Source of the DNA: a virus
Reading direction: 5' to 3' (one strand)
DNA: 25,256 bases
Virus record (IMG/VR): IMGVR_UViG_3300033150_001437
Location: 1-25,256 of that record
Shown here: positions 1-9,685 of the stretch, one piece after another
How positions within the stretch are numbered: the first letter of the stretch is position 1
Layout: every line of letters begins with the position of its first letter
The notes under the pieces: generated by a model
Seen by the model: the letters and a program-made list of their open reading frames with translations, nothing else
Told to the model about the DNA's origin: nothing
The model's database searches: none
Position numbers and translations under genes: made by a program

Positions 1-1286
1 CTAGCTTCTGGATTTAAAGCGGGTCGAGGTGGCTTATCCTGCGGTATCCTTGGATCTACCAAATCTCGAAACCGAAGTGCCAGATTCAACTCGGTCGAAA
101 CTATCCCTCCAGAATACATCGTTGAAAACGGAACCGGAATTCTTGAATCCACGCAAGCCTTAATGGCATCATCGTTGGTGAAAAACCTGTGAAGCGAGCG
201 GACATTTAAACCGACCACATCTCGAATAGCACCTTCCAAATCTCTATCGAAATCCGACTTATACTCTATTGGAACTGCTACCACCTTACCCTTCTTCTTG
301 TACACCTCCAACTCCTTATCATCCCTTATTTGATGCGGTTTTGACCAGGCGTCACCAACAAAAACATAAAACTTCTTACCCGAAAACCTAGAAGCTGGCT
401 TAGTTTCCCACGTAGAGTGAGAAATGACCATCGTATAAGGATCATTCTCAGCTATTATCTTATCCAAAAAATCATCTGGATATTTAGCTGACGAATTTAA
501 AATTAACATCCCCGGAATTCTGCCTTTCTTCTGGAACCGAGACTTCATTCGCCGCCAAACAGCATCGTGAAGTTTCTTAGCTTGATCCCACTCCCTCTCC
601 GCTGGATTTCGAATCTTCTTGCTACCAACCACAACCGGGAAGAAATTAGCTTCCTCAATAACACCGCCAAAAAGATTTTCTCCCAACGGAGCCAGCTCAG
701 ACGACGAACCCGGCACAAAAGAAATGAACCGCTGCGGCCAATACAACGCCAGCTTCAAATCCTGAGAACGAGGAAAATACTTCCGAAACCATGGTGACCC
801 GTCCATCATATCTCTTAATGTTGCAAAAAACACACGACGAGCATGCGTAGCAGATACGGACAAATTCATGAATGAAATATGAGACGCTGGAGACAAACCA
901 TAATACCCCTGAGGATCTCTCAAACAACCAAGCTCATAAAGAATCCGATTCATACACAACGCGGAAAGAAACGTCTTGCCCCACCCTATTGATCCAGACA
1001 ACACCACCCGAAGCGGTCTGGGATTGGCCTCCATTATCCGTAAAAAATCGCTTCTTACCATTGGCCAAACATTATTACCAACATGGCCAAAATACTCTGG
1101 ATCTCTCAGCCATCTCGTACAACTCACGGGTTCATGAATGTACTTCTCCTTAAGATACATGGAAGGTACGATGAACTTTTTTTCGCCTGTCTTTGCGGCT
1201 AAAGATACAAGAAACCTATGTATTTCGAGCGGAGAAATTCCTAGCTCCCTCTCTGCCTCTTGAAACAAAGAGGTATCCAACTGCAT
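1..1286 (-). CDS. terL: Phage terminase large subunit, partial (C-terminus off window)
   Basis: This is the motor of the DNA packaging machine, which pumps phage DNA into the prohead using ATP and cuts it with a C-terminal RNase H-like nuclease. About 428 residues are visible from the ATG at 1286. A Walker A motif, GSIGWGKT, sits at residues 98-105. A Walker B motif, VIEEAN, at 209-214 has the acidic pair expected for the ATPase. The segment with DAWSKPHQ after residue 300 is the probable link towards the nuclease domain, which runs past coordinate 1. The start overlaps the stop of the radical SAM gene as TAATG, so the two are translationally coupled. The fold assignment comes from the motifs and their spacing plus the nearby small-terminase candidate. 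The alternative, another P-loop ATPase, is unlikely. Confidence 0.88.
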   Translation of the reverse strand, partial: MQLDTSLFQEAERELGISPLEIHRFLVSLAAKTGEKKFIVPSMYLKEKYIHEPVSCTRWLRDPEYFGHVGNNVWPMVRSDFLRIMEANPRPLRVVLSGSIGWGKTFLSALCMNRILYELGCLRDPQGYYGLSPASHISFMNLSVSATHARRVFFATLRDMMDGSPWFRKYFPRSQDLKLALYWPQRFISFVPGSSSELAPLGENLFGGVIEEANFFPVVVGSKKIRNPAEREWDQAKKLHDAVWRRMKSRFQKKGRIPGMLILNSSAKYPDDFLDKIIAENDPYTMVISHSTWETKPASRFSGKKFYVFVGDAWSKPHQIRDDKELEVYKKKGKVVAVPIEYKSDFDRDLEGAIRDVVGLNVRSLHRFFTNDDAIKACVDSRIPVPFSTMYSGGIVSTELNLALRFRDLVDPRIPQDKPPRPALNPEA

Positions 1287-2683
1287 TATTTCTCCTTTAT
1301 CATCTTGGCTTTGATTCTACGATAAAACTCCAACTCCGCCTGTGGATTACCGTCGTTCGGTAAAACGAACTTCTTCTTCACCGTTTCGCAAGCTTTCGCA
1401 TAAGGCATGACCATTGGAAAATCCTTTTCGAAGTTGCCCCTATAAACATCCTCCAAACCATGCTTAAAAATAAACTCTCTCCACTCATCCAAACTCTTTC
1501 TCCAGAACTTCCTGGACTCCATGACTATCCTTGCTTGCTCCAACGTAGATCTGCGCAAGATACAGAACGTATGTTCCTGCGCCGCTCGCATAACAGGAAA
1601 CGAACGAAATCTTCTATTCTTTCCGGCCACCTTGCAGAAAATCTCATCGCGGTTAATATCACACTCATTCATCAAATCGTGATTTTCCATCGGAGTGTAA
1701 GGTGTTGGATCTAAATGCGTAAACTTCATAACTACCCGAGGATAACGGTCAATGTCTGCTGGAAGCTCTTCGACAAACGCATCCACATCGAACGGCTGAT
1801 GCACTATCAGAAACAATTCCCAATCTATCTTCAACCGTTTGGTTATTGCCAAAACTGACCTAATCTCTTCCGGTTCGATTGGCTTGCGATACCAAAGCCT
1901 ACGCTGCGGGGTCAACCCCTCAATTCCTATATGAAGAAACTTTGACTTAGCATACTTATGCGGAGCCTGAAGAAAGCGTTTCACCGACACCGACTGAGCC
2001 GCTGAACAATCGAGAGTCGCAAACTCTCCCGTGTCATTCCCAACGAAATAAATACTCCGACCTCGATCTGCCAACGCTCGAAGAGGTGCCAACCTTTTTG
2101 GAGGAACCGTCTGATACTTATTCGCCCACGAAGTAAAACAGAACGAACACTTATTACGACACCCGCGACCCACCAAAAAATAATACATCTTCTTTGAAAC
2201 CTGCACCGCTGGGATTTCATGCCATGGAATCTCGTAGCTTGGATAAGTTGGTTTGCCCAACTTTCCGCGATAAGTTAAATAGGATTGCTCCTTACACCAC
2301 TCGATCAGTCCTTCCACTCCCTTATCTGTCGGAAAATTCTTCATAAAATGATACCCTTCGCCTGCGCAAACAAAATCCGCAAAATTCAAAATGTATGCCG
2401 GTGTGAATCCTTCTATTCCGCCCGCTATAATCAGCGTCTTCGGAAACTGTTCTCTTAACTTTGCCAACTTATAAACATCACCCGGAGAGTACAACGTGTA
2501 AAAAATGACGTTAAAATCCTTGGAATGGTCGGTTCTAAGACCCTTCTTGGCTAAATAATAACGGAACAGTCCCACCACATAGCCAGACAGCATATTCCTC
2601 TGCGAAGACGTATGCCAGATCCTTAACGGTTCTGGCGTCTTCTTTACTGCTGGCGCTTCTTTGACAATACCTTCTTTCGCCAT
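1286..2683 (-). CDS. Radical SAM protein with cobalamin-binding-like N-terminal region
   Basis: A 465-residue protein. The radical SAM motif CxxxCxxC is visible as GCRNKCSFC with Cys175, Cys179 and Cys182, the ligands of the 4Fe-4S cluster that cleaves S-adenosylmethionine. The preceding 110 residues (AGGIEG and CAGEG at about 87-110) resemble the Rossmann-like cobalamin-binding or degenerate B12-binding region of the B12-radical SAM group, but I see no DxHxxG cobalamin-ligand motif. The middle part (HIGIEGLTPQ, VHQPFDVDAF) fits a TIM barrel. It overlaps the end of the ParB-like gene upstream by 40 nt and is coupled to terL by TAATG. Substrate and reaction are unknown: modification of a nucleobase, tRNA or protein are all possible. 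Radical SAM assignment is firm; function is not. Confidence 0.85.
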   Translation of the reverse strand: MAKEGIVKEAPAVKKTPEPLRIWHTSSQRNMLSGYVVGLFRYYLAKKGLRTDHSKDFNVIFYTLYSPGDVYKLAKLREQFPKTLIIAGGIEGFTPAYILNFADFVCAGEGYHFMKNFPTDKGVEGLIEWCKEQSYLTYRGKLGKPTYPSYEIPWHEIPAVQVSKKMYYFLVGRGCRNKCSFCFTSWANKYQTVPPKRLAPLRALADRGRSIYFVGNDTGEFATLDCSAAQSVSVKRFLQAPHKYAKSKFLHIGIEGLTPQRRLWYRKPIEPEEIRSVLAITKRLKIDWELFLIVHQPFDVDAFVEELPADIDRYPRVVMKFTHLDPTPYTPMENHDLMNECDINRDEIFCKVAGKNRRFRSFPVMRAAQEHTFCILRRSTLEQARIVMESRKFWRKSLDEWREFIFKHGLEDVYRGNFEKDFPMVMPYAKACETVKKKFVLPNDGNPQAELEFYRRIKAKMIKEK

Positions 2684-3582
2684 TCCTCATACTCCTTCTG
2701 TTTTGCGACCCGCTGAGATTCTTTCATTTCCTGCCAATAAGCCATAAACTCTTCTGACCCGGGTAACTTTAAGTTGGAGGGTGGCCCGACCTCCTCCGTC
2801 AGAACCTCTATCAGATACTTGGCTATCCACTCACCCGCCAACTCCCGTTCCGAACGATTCGATCCGAACCGTTTAGAAAGCGATGACACTATCTTATCTA
2901 TAACTTCCCTCTGAACAACGCCTCCAAAACTTCCAAACGATACCACTATCAGATCCGCACCGATGGGAACATATGTCTTGCCATCGGATTCTCGATACTC
3001 TGCCTCTGGTGAAAGAGGTGCGGAATCTTCTGCCTCATCCACATCTTCCACCACCTGCTCCAACGATATCGGACTCTCAATATCCACCGCTAGCATACCC
3101 ATATCCAGCTCGTTAACGTGTGGCTTTATAAGCTTGGCTACCTCAAGAGTGTCGTAGAATCCGAACGACTGATTATCTAACAGCGAAATCTCTATCTTCT
3201 CCGCATACGATCTAGGTGTCACAACACAGACTTCCACCATCTCATCATCGGAATAACCCAAAATCTCTTTCATCGCGCGATACCGCATATTCCCACCACC
3301 TACAACATACTTACCTTTCTCTCTTTCCTTAGGCCATACCGTCAACGTCTTAAATAGTCCATACTTCTCTATACTTCTTGCTAACGCTTGCAATTTCTCC
3401 GGTGTGATAATTCTTGGATTCACATCCCACATCTCGATATCACCAAATCTAACAGTCTTAAACTCCGGTGGATGCTTTGTTGCTGCAAGTCTTTGAGTGT
3501 GATCCATAGACTCTATAACCACCTCACCAACCTGCATCTTGCCCTTCTTCTTCGGCTTAACCTTTTTAACTCTTCGTGGCAT
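2644..3582 (-). CDS. ParB-like protein, tandem paralogue A
   Basis: A 312-residue protein with a ParB/Srx-type N-terminal domain. It shows VRFGDIEMWDVNPR (NPR at 55-57), a helix resembling QALARSIEKYGLFKTL, and GGGNMRYRA at 95-103, which sits where ParB proteins have the GGHRR nucleotide-binding motif. EIEISLLDNQSFG-like sequence follows at about 130-140. The basic N-terminus (MPRRVKKVKPKKKGK) suggests nucleic acid contact. The C-terminal half (about 205-285) is not a typical ParB DNA-binding HTH but is shared with the neighbouring paralogue. It overlaps that gene by 17 nt. Known ParB-like folds are CTPases, nucleases or DNA-methylase partners; which applies here cannot be told. Its position just upstream of terL suggests a role linked to packaging or DNA marking. 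Confidence 0.8.
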   Translation of the reverse strand: MPRRVKKVKPKKKGKMQVGEVVIESMDHTQRLAATKHPPEFKTVRFGDIEMWDVNPRIITPEKLQALARSIEKYGLFKTLTVWPKEREKGKYVVGGGNMRYRAMKEILGYSDDEMVEVCVVTPRSYAEKIEISLLDNQSFGFYDTLEVAKLIKPHVNELDMGMLAVDIESPISLEQVVEDVDEAEDSAPLSPEAEYRESDGKTYVPIGADLIVVSFGSFGGVVQREVIDKIVSSLSKRFGSNRSERELAGEWIAKYLIEVLTEEVGPPSNLKLPGSEEFMAYWQEMKESQRVAKQKEYEEWRKKVLSKKRQQ

Positions 3583-4288
3583 TTTCTTCCTCGCTTTCTA
3601 ACTTTTCAAGAATCCTCTGCGACGCCCAAAGAACTCCTTCACGCATTGCCTGCCTGGTATTTCCATACTTTCGATGAAGCAGCTCTGCGACCGCATCAGT
3701 ATACACCGCTGAAATGGTGCAAATGTAATGACCCAAGCCTATCACTCCTAAATAACCCGTAACGGGATAACGGCAATGGGGGCCCTCGTTCTCGGATGCG
3801 TGAGGTACGATTGGCAGCTCTTCCATCTCCTCTATCGCGCCATAATCAAAAGCTATGGTTTCCAGCAACATCGGAGGTGAAACGGAAAAAGAAATCATAT
3901 CCATGTCAATCTGATCCGCATACGGTCGAACAAGATTGGCAACCTCAAGCTCATTATACAGCCCGAAAGCCTGATTGTCTAAAATAGAAAGCTCTATCTT
4001 TTCCGCTTCCGTCTCTGGAAAATTTAAAGAAATGTAGATAGGTTTACCCCTCGGCCACTTCAGAACATCCTTCAATACCCTATACCTCATATTCCCGCCA
4101 CCCGTTACAATCTTATCACCTTCTTTCCAACACGTAAGATTCTGAAACATCCCATACTTAGCTACACTATTTGCCAGCTGCCGCAGTTTGGTTGGATCAA
4201 TCTTTCTAGGATTCTTCTCCCACTCATGAATCTCTCCGAACGGAACCGCCTTAAATTGAGGTGGCTTCCGCTTCTTTTTCTGTGCCAT
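3566..4288 (-). CDS. ParB-like protein, tandem paralogue B
   Basis: A 240-residue protein closely similar in layout to the gene just downstream. It has VPFGEIHEWEKNPR (NPR at 26-28), LANSVAKYGMFQNLT, GGGNMRYR at 63-70, KIELSILDNQAFGLYNELEVANL at about 95-115, and a C-terminal half with KYGNTRQAMREG and ILEKLESEE that parallels the RFGSNRSERELAG and EVLTEE stretch of its neighbour. The two look like a full-length tandem duplication that has since diverged. The ATG at 4288 has a perfect AGGAGG at 4294-4299 five bases upstream. It is the first gene after a 130 bp non-coding stretch with repeats, so it probably begins the transcript that includes the radical SAM gene and terL. Biochemical activity is unknown. 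Confidence 0.8.
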   Translation of the reverse strand: MAQKKKRKPPQFKAVPFGEIHEWEKNPRKIDPTKLRQLANSVAKYGMFQNLTCWKEGDKIVTGGGNMRYRVLKDVLKWPRGKPIYISLNFPETEAEKIELSILDNQAFGLYNELEVANLVRPYADQIDMDMISFSVSPPMLLETIAFDYGAIEEMEELPIVPHASENEGPHCRYPVTGYLGVIGLGHYICTISAVYTDAVAELLHRKYGNTRQAMREGVLWASQRILEKLESEEENATKS

Positions 4289-4959: not shown

Positions 4960-5132
4960 TCCTTATTGTCCTTCTTCCCATTTTTAATCTTTTTAACATA
5001 AGAGAAAACCTCCAACCCACATTCTCCACACAATTCCAACGATATTCTTCCTGAACCAGGTATTTCAGAAACGAAGAGATAAGTTGGACATTTAATCCTT
5101 TTTTTACAGAGATCACATAACGTTATTTTCAT
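4956..5132 (-). CDS. Small zinc-ribbon protein (58 residues)
   Basis: A 58-residue gene shorter than a usual ORF cut-off. It starts MKITLCDLCKKRIKCP and contains LCGECG near residues 35-39, giving two CxxC pairs plus an extra Cys15, a four-Cys zinc-binding layout. Both ends are ATGA overlaps: its ATG overlaps the stop of the small-terminase candidate at 5129 and its TGA overlaps the ATG at 4959. GGAGAT lies just upstream. The alternative frame over the same bases (MISVKKGLN) has no Cys pattern and worse junctions. The role is unknown. Confidence 0.75.
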   Translation of the reverse strand: MKITLCDLCKKRIKCPTYLFVSEIPGSGRISLELCGECGLEVFSYVKKIKNGKKDNKE

Positions 5133-5851
5133 TTTTCATCTCCATTACCGCTATCGGCTAACGCTTCGGCGGCGTGTTTGCGCAACCACTCCATTATCCT
5201 ATCAACTTTTTCGACTTCATCCTCCGTCAACTTAGTGTCCAACGGTCTAGTCTCGGGTAACTGCTCCAGAACCCGAGCCAAATAAAGGTCTAACTCTATA
5301 CACTCTTTTGCCTCTTTGAAATTTCTTATCTCAACTCCCGTCTCCATCAGCTCTGCTCTTAGCCTTCTTATCTCTGCATTCATCTCCGCTATCCTTGCTG
5401 GATCTGGTTCCCGAGAAGCTGCCTCTTCAAGCCTGCTAATCTGAGTCAACAACCTAACCGTCTTCTGCACTCGACGTGAAAAAGCGACCAACCCCTGCTG
5501 CAACATTCCACGATAACCTACTACGTTCCTGGTGGACTGAATTATCTTCTCCCTCATCTGCTCTTCGCGCTTCTGTCTTTCCTCCATCTCTTTGCGTTTA
5601 ACCCAATCCTTCCAATTCTCCTTCTTCGCCCACCTTTTTATCTTGGTATAGAACGACTCGAACTTCGGATCATCTTCAGAACGATTAGGATACAGCTGAG
5701 AGAACCTTATTGCTGCGGTTTCACGAAGAGTTCTACTTTCACCTAAATAGTAATATATTTCAAAACTCTCGGAATGGTTAGGATATTCGGAATCCAAAAC
5801 GTCCGTATCGTCCGCTTTCTTATTAATTTGAGTTTCTTTTGCCACCAACAA
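5129..5851 (-). CDS. Putative terminase small subunit
   Basis: A 240-residue protein. Residues about 28-80 (IYYYLGESRTLRETAAIRF, then a segment ending WAKKENWKDWVKRKEMEERQ) match the layout of phage small terminases: an HTH that recognises packaging DNA followed by a Trp-rich ENWKDW-type turn. A long charged helix follows (about 80-200), as in small terminases that oligomerise by coiled coil. Location before the large-terminase genes supports the call. The first possible codon is TTG at 5851; a second TTG and a GTG at 5845 follow directly. An in-frame TGA lies just upstream and there is no clear Shine-Dalgarno site. A promoter places the likely RNA 5' end almost on these codons, so translation may be leaderless. 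Confidence 0.65.
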   Translation of the reverse strand: MLVAKETQINKKADDTDVLDSEYPNHSESFEIYYYLGESRTLRETAAIRFSQLYPNRSEDDPKFESFYTKIKRWAKKENWKDWVKRKEMEERQKREEQMREKIIQSTRNVVGYRGMLQQGLVAFSRRVQKTVRLLTQISRLEEAASREPDPARIAEMNAEIRRLRAELMETGVEIRNFKEAKECIELDLYLARVLEQLPETRPLDTKLTEDEVEKVDRIMEWLRKHAAEALADSGNGDEK

Positions 5852-5992: not shown

Positions 5993-7360
5993 TTAGTCAT
6001 TGGGAACGAAAAGAGGACAAACGCCTTTGGGTTTCCGAACTCCTTTTAAACACTGCGACGATTCCCCCAAATAAAATCGGCAATTTGCACATATGTCTTC
6101 GTCTGCTGGGACGAAATCGGGGCAAGCTTCTGGACCCGCTAGAATCTCCTCGTTACAGTACGAGCAAAAAGCCTTCTCGGCTCCACTTTCCATCGTCACT
6201 ACTTTAAAATACTGACAATCTGGACAGCGAGAAGACTCAGTAGTCGGAACAAAAAGCTTACAACTCCTCCGAAGAAGCGATAGATTACGCGCTGGAAACG
6301 ACTCAGAACAAGCGAACTCGCCGTTGTCTATCACCAAATGTTTACAACGCAAACAGACACACGTCTCAGAATCCTCCAACTCTTCTACGCCATTTTCCTC
6401 ATCCTGCCGCTTAAACTCCGAACACGGACAAGAAGCTTCTATAACACCCCCCTGAAGTGAACATCGCGCGATCTCATTACCATTTAAATCCTCTGCCACG
6501 CTAAAATAAACACAATCAGCAGGACGCTTCGCCGTTTTGGCTGGAATAAACCGGCCGCACTTAGTCCAAAGGCGAGGAAGAGTACGACCGGGAAAGGACT
6601 CGTCGCAAAAAAATTTGCCTTTATCAATCAGCAAATGACCGCACTCCAAACAACCACCCAATCTAGAGGGAGAGTCGTTCGGAACGGAAATAGTATGAAT
6701 GGTCGTACCTGGAAGAAAGGACTGACGACCGTAATAAGGACGCGTGACTTCCTCCTTAACTTTCTCTGAAATCTCTTTACGATACCGTTCCTTCTCCTTC
6801 GCCGTTAATGAATCCGCTACCACCACATTAAAAGAATCAAAAGTCACCCTAGCTGGAAAAAAGATAGATGGAAGGCCACATGACTTCTGTAGATCGGATC
6901 CTAAAGATGACAAATAACTCAAATCGACATCCATTCTCGCTTTCATCGAACCGTCCACGCACATAACCACACTAACCAACCACCCGGTGGAGCGGGCTAA
7001 CTTTGCTATCGTGTCAGTGTCAATGGAGGACCAAAAGGTTCCCATCGAAACATGAGAATGTATCCAACATTTTAAAGCCTCTGGATTCTTATGAGAACTC
7101 AAAAAAGCGGCCACGGACGCCATATCGAATGACGCTGAACCGAATGACACCTTCTGATCCAACAGATGAACCTGCTTAATAACGAACCGAGAAGCCTCTG
7201 CGTCTAGCTTGACCTCTCCCAAAAACTGAACCTCGTTTGGGTCGCACTCACGAGCGATGAACAGCAACTTATCATAAACCTTTCTTGGAAAAAAGACTGA
7301 CCATTCTGCTAATTCATCCCCAAACATGACATTATTGCTAACCTTTTTTACACCCTTCAT
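5993..7360 (-). CDS. JAB/JAMM-family isopeptidase with repeated Cys-rich zinc modules
   Basis: A 455-residue protein. Residues 20-150 carry a JAMM zinc-metalloprotease domain. Glu43 lies in NEVQFLGE, and HSHVSMGTFWSSID gives His101, His103, Ser111 and Asp114, an exact HxHx7Sx2D signature. The family removes ubiquitin-like tags by cutting isopeptide bonds. Residues 237-455 are Cys-rich: CLECGHLLIDKGKF-C-DESFPGR (237-258) recurs as CLRCKHLVIDNGEF-C-SESFPAR (336-357), each followed by a further Cys set with a DC-x-YF start (282 and 381). A final CANC...C...C unit ends the protein. These are probable zinc knuckles for substrate or DNA binding. GAGGTG precedes the ATG. It begins 2 bases after the E1 gene and is the last gene of the cassette. 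Confidence 0.88.
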   Translation of the reverse strand: MKGVKKVSNNVMFGDELAEWSVFFPRKVYDKLLFIARECDPNEVQFLGEVKLDAEASRFVIKQVHLLDQKVSFGSASFDMASVAAFLSSHKNPEALKCWIHSHVSMGTFWSSIDTDTIAKLARSTGWLVSVVMCVDGSMKARMDVDLSYLSSLGSDLQKSCGLPSIFFPARVTFDSFNVVVADSLTAKEKERYRKEISEKVKEEVTRPYYGRQSFLPGTTIHTISVPNDSPSRLGGCLECGHLLIDKGKFFCDESFPGRTLPRLWTKCGRFIPAKTAKRPADCVYFSVAEDLNGNEIARCSLQGGVIEASCPCSEFKRQDEENGVEELEDSETCVCLRCKHLVIDNGEFACSESFPARNLSLLRRSCKLFVPTTESSRCPDCQYFKVVTMESGAEKAFCSYCNEEILAGPEACPDFVPADEDICANCRFYLGESSQCLKGVRKPKGVCPLFVPND

Positions 7361-7362
7361 TT

Positions 7363-8046
7363 TTACACCTCAAACTTAACGATAGTCAGATCCGCCATAC
7401 TAATGGCGGTGTCCCGAACGACCTCGTCGTTCTTCAAATAGCGACGGACTATATTCGTCACGACGGATGCGACCATAAAGCCGACATCGATTATGGATCT
7501 GGCTGTACAAGACTGCTCCGACCCTTCTGCGTTAGAGAAAAGATTCTTTTCATACCACTTATGGTGCATCGCATCGTTGATAGGTCGAATAGCTAAAATC
7601 CGAATGGTCTCTCCGCCGATCCTACCATCAATATAAAGCGGAACGAAAATGTTCTTCTTAACGTGTTCCCAGATTTCCTTGCGGCCGGCGTGTTCATGTT
7701 CTTCATCTTTTCCCATGCTGTCAACTGCCGCTATCACAATACCGTTCAAAACATCATCGGTTGACCAAAACCGATTCATAGCCTCCACTTTAGTACCTGT
7801 CAACTCCTCAATTATGTCCGCGAGCGCCTCAACCTTTGACCTTCCTACGTCAGACAACTTGAAAAACTGATTGGGAACGTTGTGCTCTTCAACTACATCG
7901 CCATCCCAAACGGTTATCCTCGCCAGCCCCAACTTTGCCAACGCAATTGCAGTAAAAGAACCAATGCCGCCCGCTCCTATAACATGAACGTTAACATCTT
8001 CATAATCTAAAGGATTGAAAATATCAACCTGTCTGCGAAACTCCAT
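7363..8046 (-). CDS. E1-like (ThiF/MoeB superfamily) Ubl-activating enzyme
   Basis: A 227-residue adenylating enzyme. HVIGAGGIGS near residues 21-30 is the nucleotide-binding Rossmann loop. VWDGD near 46-50 supplies the ribose-binding acid, and EEHNVPNQFF with SKVEAL matches the region after it. AAVDSMGKD near 106-114 is the second acidic motif. SEQSCTARSI places Cys180 where E1-like proteins carry the catalytic thioester cysteine. Such enzymes adenylate the C-terminal glycine of a Ubl and pass it to E2. I chose the ATG at 8046, which has GGAGG six bases upstream, over the GTG one codon earlier. It overlaps the end of the E2 gene by 23 bases, so the two are translationally coupled. It has only a single catalytic domain and no extra Ubl-fold domain. 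Confidence 0.87.
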   Translation of the reverse strand: MEFRRQVDIFNPLDYEDVNVHVIGAGGIGSFTAIALAKLGLARITVWDGDVVEEHNVPNQFFKLSDVGRSKVEALADIIEELTGTKVEAMNRFWSTDDVLNGIVIAAVDSMGKDEEHEHAGRKEIWEHVKKNIFVPLYIDGRIGGETIRILAIRPINDAMHHKWYEKNLFSNAEGSEQSCTARSIIDVGFMVASVVTNIVRRYLKNDEVVRDTAISMADLTIVKFEV

Positions 8047-9448
8047 CACTTTCCTCCTTTATAGGTTTAACGCCCCATCGCTCCGCCAGGCTCTCGACTG
8101 ACGTGAAGCGATCATCATCGTTATAAGAATTCAAGAAATTCCAAATGACCTGAATTAACACCGTCCAATTCCAATCCGCCCACAACTTATACACCCCTTC
8201 CTTAATATCGCCCCAACAAACACTTTCACCACTATCTGTCACATGAGGATGCGTATAACTTGTATTCTGATGGTCTAAATTAACAAGATGAATATCTGCG
8301 GTTGAGGAAGATGAAAGAGAAATGCAGATCCGAAACCGACCGAGAGGATAAATCATCCCATTGTATCGAATCCTAGCCTCTGTTGTATCAAATTCCAACC
8401 AAGAATTGCAAAACCCAATTCGTTCGATAAACGGAAAAGACGCTATTTCCTGTAACTGAGTCTCGACATCCTTACGAATGACCGCTCTGCGATCCGCAGT
8501 TGCCTTAGCCAACGCTTCCTTCTCCTTAGATATTGCTGCTGAAATAGAAATCATCGAATGTATCGTCTTGTCTACCTCCCTTTTTATTCCATTTAAGGGC
8601 GGAATCTGTGCAATGAAACTGTCGACTCCGGCCTGAAAGGCTTGCTCATACGAATCTGGAGAGCCTGCGAAAAGCTCCGCTATTCTTCGAAACTGTCTGG
8701 CGCGTTGTCGTTTTTCCTGCGGATCATCGACCTTCTCTGATTTTAGCTTATTCAGCTCATCCAACACAAACTTAGCGGAAAAATAGGCGGACACTGCCAT
8801 TTTGAACTCTTTCTGTTTCTCATCAAAAGCGGCTGCCAAAACCGAAATCTTATCCCTCAACCCCCGCTCTATTCGACCGGACTGTGAAATCAACCTATCC
8901 GTAACTGCGTCGACCACCCTTGGTTCCACACTTGTAATCAAAATGCGCTGACGAGCCTGCTCCTCCGCCTTTCTCAATTTTTCCATCCTATTTGATTGAG
9001 CTGCGGAACGAACGTTGGGAACCGAAACTGACCGCAACCTACCATGCTCATCCACTCGCAGCTCTGTCTGAACTTCTTCTGGTTCGAGTATCGGGTACCT
9101 ACGAAAAGCTGCCTGAATCCGTCGTTGAACTTCACTAACCTCAATCCGCATCTCATCCAATACTGCCTGAACCCTATTTAAAGTCTCGGATGACAATCGA
9201 GTCTCTGAACCGGTATCTTCCGTAACTGATTGACCTTGAATCTGATGCCACTGCCAACCTTTCTCCTGACAAATATCTCTTATAATATTAAAAGACTCAG
9301 GATGAACACAAATATTGCCATCCTGATCCACGAATCCCAAAAAAGAACGATTACGAACTGATGCTAAGACGGTGGAGGCAGGAACAACTTCGCCACCCGC
9401 TGTCTTAACGACCCCCACCGCCCAAGAAGCATCAAGAAGGAACCGCAT
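8024..9448 (-). CDS. E2-like (UBC-fold) conjugating enzyme with long N-terminal extension
   Basis: A 474-residue protein. The last 130 residues carry an E2-like motif: YTHPHV at 398-403 stands for the family HPN turn, and SGESVCWGDI contains Cys411, the candidate thioester cysteine, followed by tryptophans in YKLWADWNWTVLIQVIW like the W after the active site of E2s. The first 75 residues form a small unknown domain (LLDASWAVGVVK, GFVDQDGNICVHPESF). Residues about 85-330 are mostly charged helix, probably coiled coil. Ordinary E2s are about 150 residues, so about 340 residues here are extra and may bind substrate or replace an E3. It starts 3 bases after the Ubl stop and overlaps the E1 gene. 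The E2 call rests on the Cys motif and the E1/Ubl/JAB neighbours. Confidence 0.8.
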   Translation of the reverse strand: MRFLLDASWAVGVVKTAGGEVVPASTVLASVRNRSFLGFVDQDGNICVHPESFNIIRDICQEKGWQWHQIQGQSVTEDTGSETRLSSETLNRVQAVLDEMRIEVSEVQRRIQAAFRRYPILEPEEVQTELRVDEHGRLRSVSVPNVRSAAQSNRMEKLRKAEEQARQRILITSVEPRVVDAVTDRLISQSGRIERGLRDKISVLAAAFDEKQKEFKMAVSAYFSAKFVLDELNKLKSEKVDDPQEKRQRARQFRRIAELFAGSPDSYEQAFQAGVDSFIAQIPPLNGIKREVDKTIHSMISISAAISKEKEALAKATADRRAVIRKDVETQLQEIASFPFIERIGFCNSWLEFDTTEARIRYNGMIYPLGRFRICISLSSSSTADIHLVNLDHQNTSYTHPHVTDSGESVCWGDIKEGVYKLWADWNWTVLIQVIWNFLNSYNDDDRFTSVESLAERWGVKPIKEESDGVSQTG

Positions 9449-9451
9449 CCT

Positions 9452-9685
9452 TCACCCCGCTACAATAGAATCGACTAAAACCAAACCGTCTCCGGGTTTA
9501 ACTATCGCTGCTTCATCGACCTGCTGACCGTTAAGGAAATACTGCTCTGCTCCACCCTCCAAAATGCCGCGCTCGATTAAAGTCTGAATAGACACTCCTT
9601 CCGGTTCCTCAATCACGACGGTTTTAGGTGGACGGCCTAAATGTAGAACCCTTATGCCTTCATTCGCTATCGCATTTTCTGACAT
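9452..9685 (-). CDS. Ubiquitin-like beta-grasp protein (ThiS/MoaD type)
   Basis: A 77-residue protein with the ThiS/MoaD/Ubl pattern. Strands RVLHLGR and KTVVIEE come first, then a helix VSIQTLIERG and the turn YFLNGQQVD like the fvNG.xv segment of ThiS, then VKPGDGLVLVDSIVAG. The chain ends in Ala-Gly with the stop codon directly after, so the terminal glycine is ready for adenylation without proteolytic processing. AAGGAGG lies at 9692-9698, six bases before the ATG. It is the first gene of the Ubl-E2-E1-JAB block. In function it would be the tag that E1 and E2 attach to lysines of targets. A sulfur-carrier role is possible but unlikely given the E2 gene. Confidence 0.87.
   Translation of the reverse strand: MSENAIANEGIRVLHLGRPPKTVVIEEPEGVSIQTLIERGILEGGAEQYFLNGQQVDEAAIVKPGDGLVLVDSIVAG

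Follow-up and report, generated by a model that had tools for sequence, protein, structure and literature searches.

Many phages carry a ParB-like domain fused to an N6/N4 DNA methyltransferase (family phrog_498), as in Terrisporobacter phage TPDSL_ph1 and probably in the "DNA methylase" of Psychrobacter phage pOW20-A, which is encoded shortly before terL, the gene of the large terminase subunit. In the Dpd systems of 7-deazaguanine DNA modification, DpdA is accompanied by DpdB, a ParB-like ATPase that is said to drive base insertion (PMC12839542). Here we analyze the IMG/VR virus record IMGVR_UViG_3300033150_001437, taken whole as the window (25,256 bases, likely a fragment of a viral genome), in which the gene of a radical S-adenosylmethionine (rSAM) enzyme lies between the gene of a ParB-like protein, ParB1, and terL (Table 1). 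This cassette has the same ParB-like domain as the phrog_498 fusions and stands before terL as in pOW20-A, but a separate B12-type rSAM protein takes the place of the fused Rossmann methyltransferase. Like Dpd, it would combine a ParB-like protein with a DNA-modifying enzyme; however, no DpdA-like gene was detected in the records of the window-type viruses, which are fragments, and the chemistry of the cassette would be radical. The solved enzyme nearest in predicted fold, MgmA, is described as a B12-dependent rSAM glutamine C-methylase acting on MCR (PDB 9ccb; PMC11796369). MgmA and the window protein have a Rossmann domain and an rSAM barrel in common over approximately 340 residues but are only 14% identical in the alignment, and the window protein is viral and paired with ParB, with no MCR gene seen. 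The methylthiotransferases MiaB, RimO, and MtaB have the two-domain layout and the barrel in common with it (Z approximately 16), but the window family keeps only the 3 rSAM cysteines, and its score with the NCBIfam methylthiotransferase family is 13.3 against a cut-off of 251. A 404-residue protein of the uncultured phage Siphoviridae sp. ctdcr45 (A0A8S5QA32), which carries "Fe-S oxidoreductase" as a database name only, is similar in length and fold (BFVD, E 2.9e-10). We favor, at about an even chance, the reading that the ParB-like and rSAM proteins form a two-gene phage module, placed before the terminase genes, that covalently modifies the phage's own DNA.

The preliminary description of the window, made from its letters, had proposed a 465-residue protein with a CxxxCxxC motif and a B12-like N-terminal region. 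The open reading frame (ORF) and its translation confirm the former, on the minus strand, which had not been specified, and the predicted fold agrees with the latter. The motif reads C175-R-N-K-C179-S-F-C182, and its 3 cysteines are present in 39/39 aligned homologues. The cluster motif was also found in 11/11 further loci, in 3 of which the lysine (K178) is replaced. The columns conserved in at least 85% of the 39 homologues are G88, G89, D103, G108, G174, C175, K178, C179, F181, C182, W186, G253, R262, K267, T330, and P331. Outside the motif no cysteine column reaches this level, and the lack of a second conserved cysteine set speaks against a methylthiotransferase. With the Pfam Radical_SAM profile the window protein scored 22.4 bits, below the cut-off of 29.5; siblings reached the cut-offs of Radical_SAM (L008, 30.9 bits) and of Radical_SAM_N2 (L016, 37.6 against 29). 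All its NCBIfam matches were far under cut-off, and PHROGs gave no family match for it or for 10 relatives. Hence, neither database assigns it to a housekeeping family, in line with the earlier proposal that it does not belong to general metabolism. Searches with the single sequence gave no match among phage records, one match among viral contigs, which was the same virus, and no rSAM protein in the PDB.

An AlphaFold model computed from 25 sequences (pLDDT 85.9, pTM 0.85) contains a partial TIM barrel, and nearly all top rows in the Foldseek and VIA comparisons were rSAM enzymes. MgmA was the best structural match (Foldseek, 3.4e-13; VIA, Z 20.7 over 338 residues at a root-mean-square deviation of 3.6 Å, residues 21–387) and also ranked first among the PDB profile matches (1.7e-5, partial); it was followed in VIA by AprD4 (Z 17.0), MiaB (16.6), RimO (16.4), CysS (15.6), OxsB (15.5), and TsrM (15.3). 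The VIA alignments with MgmA, TsrM, OxsB, and CysS begin at approximately residue 18 to 21, and thus take in the N-terminal cobalamin-type Rossmann domain. These matches point to a two-domain architecture like that of cobalamin-type rSAM enzymes. According to the model, the window protein is an rSAM enzyme whose N-terminal part forms a cobalamin-type Rossmann domain, and it would probably use cobalamin. AprD4 needs no B12 despite having the same layout, so the fold alone is not decisive on cofactor use.

Relatives were reached through a terL search first and then through alignment-based scans. The terL search returned 7 further records, by our own count 5 distinct viruses, with terL identities of approximately 61% to 69% where aligned (49.5% in a 103-residue piece of record G006). 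In 4 of the 5, an rSAM gene is flanked by a ParB-like gene on one side and terL on the other, and the rSAM proteins are 52%, 46%, 27%, and 23% identical to that of the window. The cassettes fall into 2 types, A (window, G004/G005, and G006) and B (G002 and G003), with a distinct ParB type accompanying each rSAM type. The window virus is a close relative of G003, with identities of 81% in the portal, 75% to 90% in several head proteins, and 65% in terL, yet their rSAM proteins are only 27% and their ParB proteins approximately 23% identical (E approximately 1e-3). The more distant G006 has a portal of 49% identity and yet an rSAM protein of 52% and a ParB protein of 46%. That a close virus carries the other type and a distant one the same type indicates that ParB and rSAM are exchanged as a unit. 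A sister virus, G007/G008, has no cassette: in G007, terS (the gene of the small terminase subunit) and terL are separated by approximately 2.9 kb of repetitive, apparently non-coding sequence without recognized genes (L026:17300-20000). After its terL stands a 7-deazaguanine set consisting of QueD, QueE, PRT-FolE, QueC, GAT-QueC, and a DpdA-like gene (phrog_887, 1.7e-14), and in the same region are an AdoMet decarboxylase, methyltransferase-like genes, a SPASM-like rSAM gene, and 2 ParB-like genes (L026:3466-14122 in G007). This set could produce a hypermodified deazaguanine. The apparent replacement of the cassette by a DNA modification set, seen once, fits the DNA-modification reading and proves nothing.

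A QueD/PTPS-like gene follows terL in 7/7 related records (e.g., L004:5246-5599). A queuosine-type pathway as an explanation for the rSAM gene was nevertheless dropped: the QueD catalytic cysteine before HGH is lost, as judged by eye, in G001, G003, and G004/G005, and besides QueD no other gene of the pathway was found beside the cassette. The Pfam TGT profile matched in 0/9 records, all of them fragments, in a scan that also missed the DpdA-like gene of G007 detected with PHROGs, and a BLAST search with the G007 DpdA gave no match beyond G007 when G008 was set aside.

The alignment scan of viral contigs returned 42 rSAM loci, 37 of which were kept after dropping duplicates (L037, L043, L048, L054, and L065). 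A ParB-like gene lies at most 3 genes from the rSAM gene in 35/37 distinct loci and in most overlaps or abuts its start; in L062, counted among these, 2 small ORFs separate the two, and in L047, L051, and L055 the ParB assignment was made solely with our own profile, built from the other neighbors. The preliminary description had raised the question of whether related phages carry the rSAM gene far from terL. They mostly carry it close by, terL being within approximately 2.2 kb in 34/37 loci. The exceptions are L064 and L068, which have neither ParB nor a nearby terL, and, for terL alone, L060, whose contig ends just past the rSAM gene. The order varies in L038, where ParB follows rSAM, and in L074, where terL precedes the pair. 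The terminases of the cassette loci belong to unrelated families (phrog_2 type, GpA, TerL_ATPase, and a fourth group whose matches are weak). A phrog_2 match was obtained in 25/37 records, although in L060 and L068 the matched gene is not beside rSAM, and most misses are other terminase families or a terL recognized by BLAST to a neighbor's terL (L049 and L069).

Two further scans with other query alignments added 11 contigs, whose rSAM proteins are 32% to 79% identical to the nearest earlier one. Using profiles built on the first set, ParB was called upstream in 10/11 and terL downstream in 11/11; contig L130 starts at the rSAM gene and hence has no upstream sequence for ParB, and its terL was called on a weak match (1.7e-5). 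Both sets together place rSAM beside terL in 45/48 loci. The family is nearly absent among sequenced phages. A scan of bacterial genomes gave 4 matches, 2 of which (L076 and L077) are in a prophage-like ParB-rSAM-terS-terL order, with one extra gene in between in L076, and 2 (L078 and L079) in an unrelated cellular context; among 391 genomes from the same class as L076, the only match was in L076's own genome. The constant partner of the rSAM gene is thus the ParB-like gene and not terL, and the two are adjacent even where terS or other genes part rSAM from terL. Of the coupling to terL noted in the preliminary description, the nearness holds, but the conserved unit is the ParB–rSAM pair, which is swapped while terL stays.

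The modeled ParB1 has the ParB/Noc/KorB/sulfiredoxin fold (Foldseek, 5e-7), and phrog_498 was matched by 26 of the 29 genes that flank rSAM. When the ParB domain of L063 was compared with phage records, 388 matches were obtained, and 28 of the 60 matches listed are annotated as methyltransferase or methylase. Six of these ParB-domain proteins were scanned with Pfam: 4 combine ParB_N with N6_N4_Mtase, 1 contains PAPS_reduct, and 1 combines ParB_N with DUF4417. A cytosine-C5 methylase gene directly follows 3 of the 4 ParB_N–N6_N4_Mtase genes and stands 2 genes on after the fourth. In pOW20-A, a Methanoculleus virus, and IPP52, terL is within approximately 1.5 kb of the ParB-domain gene. With this domain joined to N6/N4 DNA methylases, a PAPS-reductase-like domain, or DUF4417, often just ahead of terL, the rSAM gene sits in a slot that DNA-modifying enzymes often occupy. 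In favor of DNA as the substrate, the rSAM proteins are also basic (isoelectric point 8.6 to 9.6 in 14/14 computed, all of them within this family).

In the DNA-modification reading, the ParB-like protein has a ParB/Srx fold that binds CTP/ATP; its part would be to bind DNA or present it, gating the reaction. With a [4Fe-4S] cluster and S-adenosylmethionine, and probably with cobalamin, the rSAM enzyme would functionalize an unreactive C–H of a base in the phage's own DNA before packaging, most simply by methylation. The mark would shield the phage genome from host nucleases, possibly allowing escape from restriction, and it may also label phage DNA for the terminase. ParB-linked, terminase-adjacent modification modules are known, and the rSAM-bearing form is a variant of them; its chemistry would be new if DNA is the substrate. 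A literature search, which reached few subscription papers, found no published account of a ParB–rSAM cassette. More tentatively, and as a possibility rather than a probability, we propose a new class of DNA-modifying enzymes in which a B12-type rSAM protein and a ParB-family nucleotide-switch partner place a carbon-linked mark on phage DNA, the rSAM protein acting directly on DNA bases in the service of protection or packaging and not of repair. Fusions of a ParB-like domain to a DNA methylase are common in phages, and a B12-type rSAM enzyme in the methylase's place points to an unreported DNA chemistry in uncultured phages; the ParB partner would gain a general role, open to testing, in loading a modifying enzyme on DNA or gating it there.

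Several observations weigh against the DNA-modification reading. MgmA, the nearest fold, is a protein methylase, and inspection by eye shows no DxHxxG motif in the rSAM protein. The loci without both ParB and a nearby terL form a clade of their own, in which the rSAM gene is coupled to a PAPS-reductase-like gene (L068) or follows a RecD-like helicase gene (L064). The distance correlation between rSAM and ParB is modest (r 0.36, n = 32). Among 10 annotated ParB regions fetched, terL is annotated downstream in only 5, and in 2 (Vibrio phage R19R and Rhodobacter phage RcKvothe) ParB precedes the terminase with no modifying enzyme in between. Psychrobacter phage Y8A shows the same arrangement in its published table (PMC10434257). 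ParB may therefore serve packaging itself. Because of such ParB genes, and because the nearest fold acts on a protein, we put DNA modification no higher than evenly balanced and retain two rival readings, modification of a protein and a part in packaging.

The rSAM enzyme could, much as MgmA acts on a glutamine of MCR, modify a protein of the phage: the terminase, the portal, or the capsid. Of these, the neighboring terminase would be the likely target, with ParB serving as an adaptor. Both the match to MgmA, in fold and in PDB profile, and the position next to terL would suit this. However, the same rSAM family stands beside unrelated terminases, and ParB and rSAM are replaced between close viruses whose terL and head genes are similar, whereas a dedicated protein substrate should co-vary. 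The distance correlation of rSAM with TerL (0.34) is also lower than that with ParB (0.55; n = 18). We consider this explanation unlikely, though credible. The preliminary description had read the tight coupling to terL as a sign of a role in packaging or virion modification. The linkage is real, but the overlap with terL does not speak for a packaging role, overlaps being common in this genome: in a list of 30 genes picked by eye among the ORF calls, 12/29 neighboring pairs overlap. If the cassette were a module for packaging or genome processing, the ParB-like protein would work with the terminase, as a CTP-dependent clamp or a nickase at pac/cos, and the rSAM enzyme would alter or regulate it, with DNA modified at most at the packaging site. 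Dam methylation of phage P1 pac is a precedent, and ParB-like genes ahead of the terminase without a partner enzyme, together with the 45/48 loci with rSAM beside terL, are consistent with it. The same ParB domain is, however, fused to DNA methylases in many phages, some without an annotated terminase nearby, and G007 has terS and terL with no cassette in between. This makes such a module rather unlikely, and DNA modification, which the preliminary description had mentioned only as a point for liquid chromatography–mass spectrometry, is better supported.

A phage-borne defense or superinfection-exclusion pair, or a nucleotide-pool enzyme with viperin-like chemistry on nucleoside triphosphates and a CTP-binding ParB, seems distinctly improbable. 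The L070 rSAM protein matches the candidate model PDC-M51A (2.7e-7) and ParB1 matches PD-Lambda-5_A (5.7e-4) in PADLOC, the ParB fold is of the CTP-binding type, and viperins appear lower in the fold list. In turn, PADLOC gave no match (at 0.01) for the window rSAM protein or for 4 of 5 relatives scanned, viperin matches cover the barrel only (Z approximately 8) whereas the rSAM protein has a B12-type domain, and the strict slot before the terminase is unlike mobile defense islands. A chance neighborhood, or a passenger gene of housekeeping metabolism, is barely credible. One-base overlaps do occur in 2/29 listed pairs, rSAM/terL and RecA/gp32, but the linkage to ParB and terL, kept across rSAM proteins down to approximately 20% identity and in the 11 further contigs, contradicts it, as does the absence of a housekeeping family match.

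Nearly all genes of the window are on the minus strand. The order of transcription is the probable terS, 2 small ORFs, ParB2, ParB1, rSAM, and terL, which runs past the window end. As the preliminary description had noted, the rSAM gene ends in the TAATG that starts terL (1288–1284, one base in common) and overlaps a ParB-like gene at its own start, by 40 nucleotides; ParB1 and ParB2 overlap by 17. The rSAM gene and terL are each preceded by a Shine-Dalgarno-like sequence of their own. The terL match to phrog_2 is weak, yet 7 related records have the gene conserved in a co-linear arrangement. In the near-identical record G001 (99.2% to 99.5% DNA identity), the completed terL is followed by a QueD-like gene, a probable portal gene, and head genes.

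Table 1. Coordinates of the cassette and adjoining features in the window.
Feature	Coordinates	Strand	Evidence
rSAM gene: 465 amino acids, predicted N-terminal B12-type Rossmann domain, rSAM barrel, and helical C-terminus	1286..2683	-	Pfam and sibling scans, AlphaFold model, fold searches, cluster cysteines in 39/39 aligned homologues
CxxxCxxC codons, rSAM residues 175–182	2138..2161	-	Translation; C175, C179, and C182 in 39/39 aligned family members
Predicted rSAM B12-type Rossmann domain, approximately residues 18–150, with invariant GG (88–89) and G108	2234..2632	-	Model, VIA alignment, conserved columns; limits estimated
Predicted rSAM partial barrel, approximately residues 151–381	1541..2233	-	Model, VIA alignment; limits estimated
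ParB1: ParB/Srx fold, 312 amino acids, GGxxR box, partner gene	2644..3582	-	PHROG ParB matches to 6.5e-11; model; Foldseek to ParB/Noc/KorB, 5e-7
ParB2: second ParB-like protein, 240 amino acids, 36% identity to ParB1	3566..4288	-	PHROG; comparison of relatives
terL, cut by the window end; complete (670 amino acids) in G001	3..1286	-	phrog_2, 3.4e-4 (weak); relatives; complete ORF in G001
terS, probable gene of the small terminase subunit, lying upstream of the cassette	5129..5851	-	phrog_6299, 3.6e-8; conserved in relatives

In some relatives a further gene stands between rSAM and terL. L039 has a PLD-like gene there (L039:2482-3015; PLDc_2, 1.9e-6), and L076:7175-7717 is similar by eye. In G002 the place is taken by a 59-residue ORF (L062:9319-9498) that starts MKYKTIVADPPW; it has no match in Pfam and only weak phage matches (best E 0.3, some annotated as adenine methyltransferase). 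Its start resembles that of an MT-A70 methylase, of which it may be a remnant, and we did not use it as evidence.

The same genomes contain other clusters. On the minus strand of the window (5993–9685), a JAB-like gene, a ThiF/E1-like gene (PADLOC E1-E2, 1.5e-13), a 474-residue E2 candidate, and a 77-residue ubiquitin/MoaD-like ORF ending in VAG stand in a row. They may encode a ubiquitin-like conjugation system and are also present in G002 and G007, and in G006 without the small ORF. The terL of G006 (L022:9196-12369) contains 2 intein-like inserts, both of which begin with C and end in HN; the first sits at the Walker A motif and the second close to the C-terminus. Finally, glycosyltransferase-like, sulfatase-like, and SPASM-like rSAM genes cluster in G002 (L015:309-10987) and G005 (L031:6168-13275).

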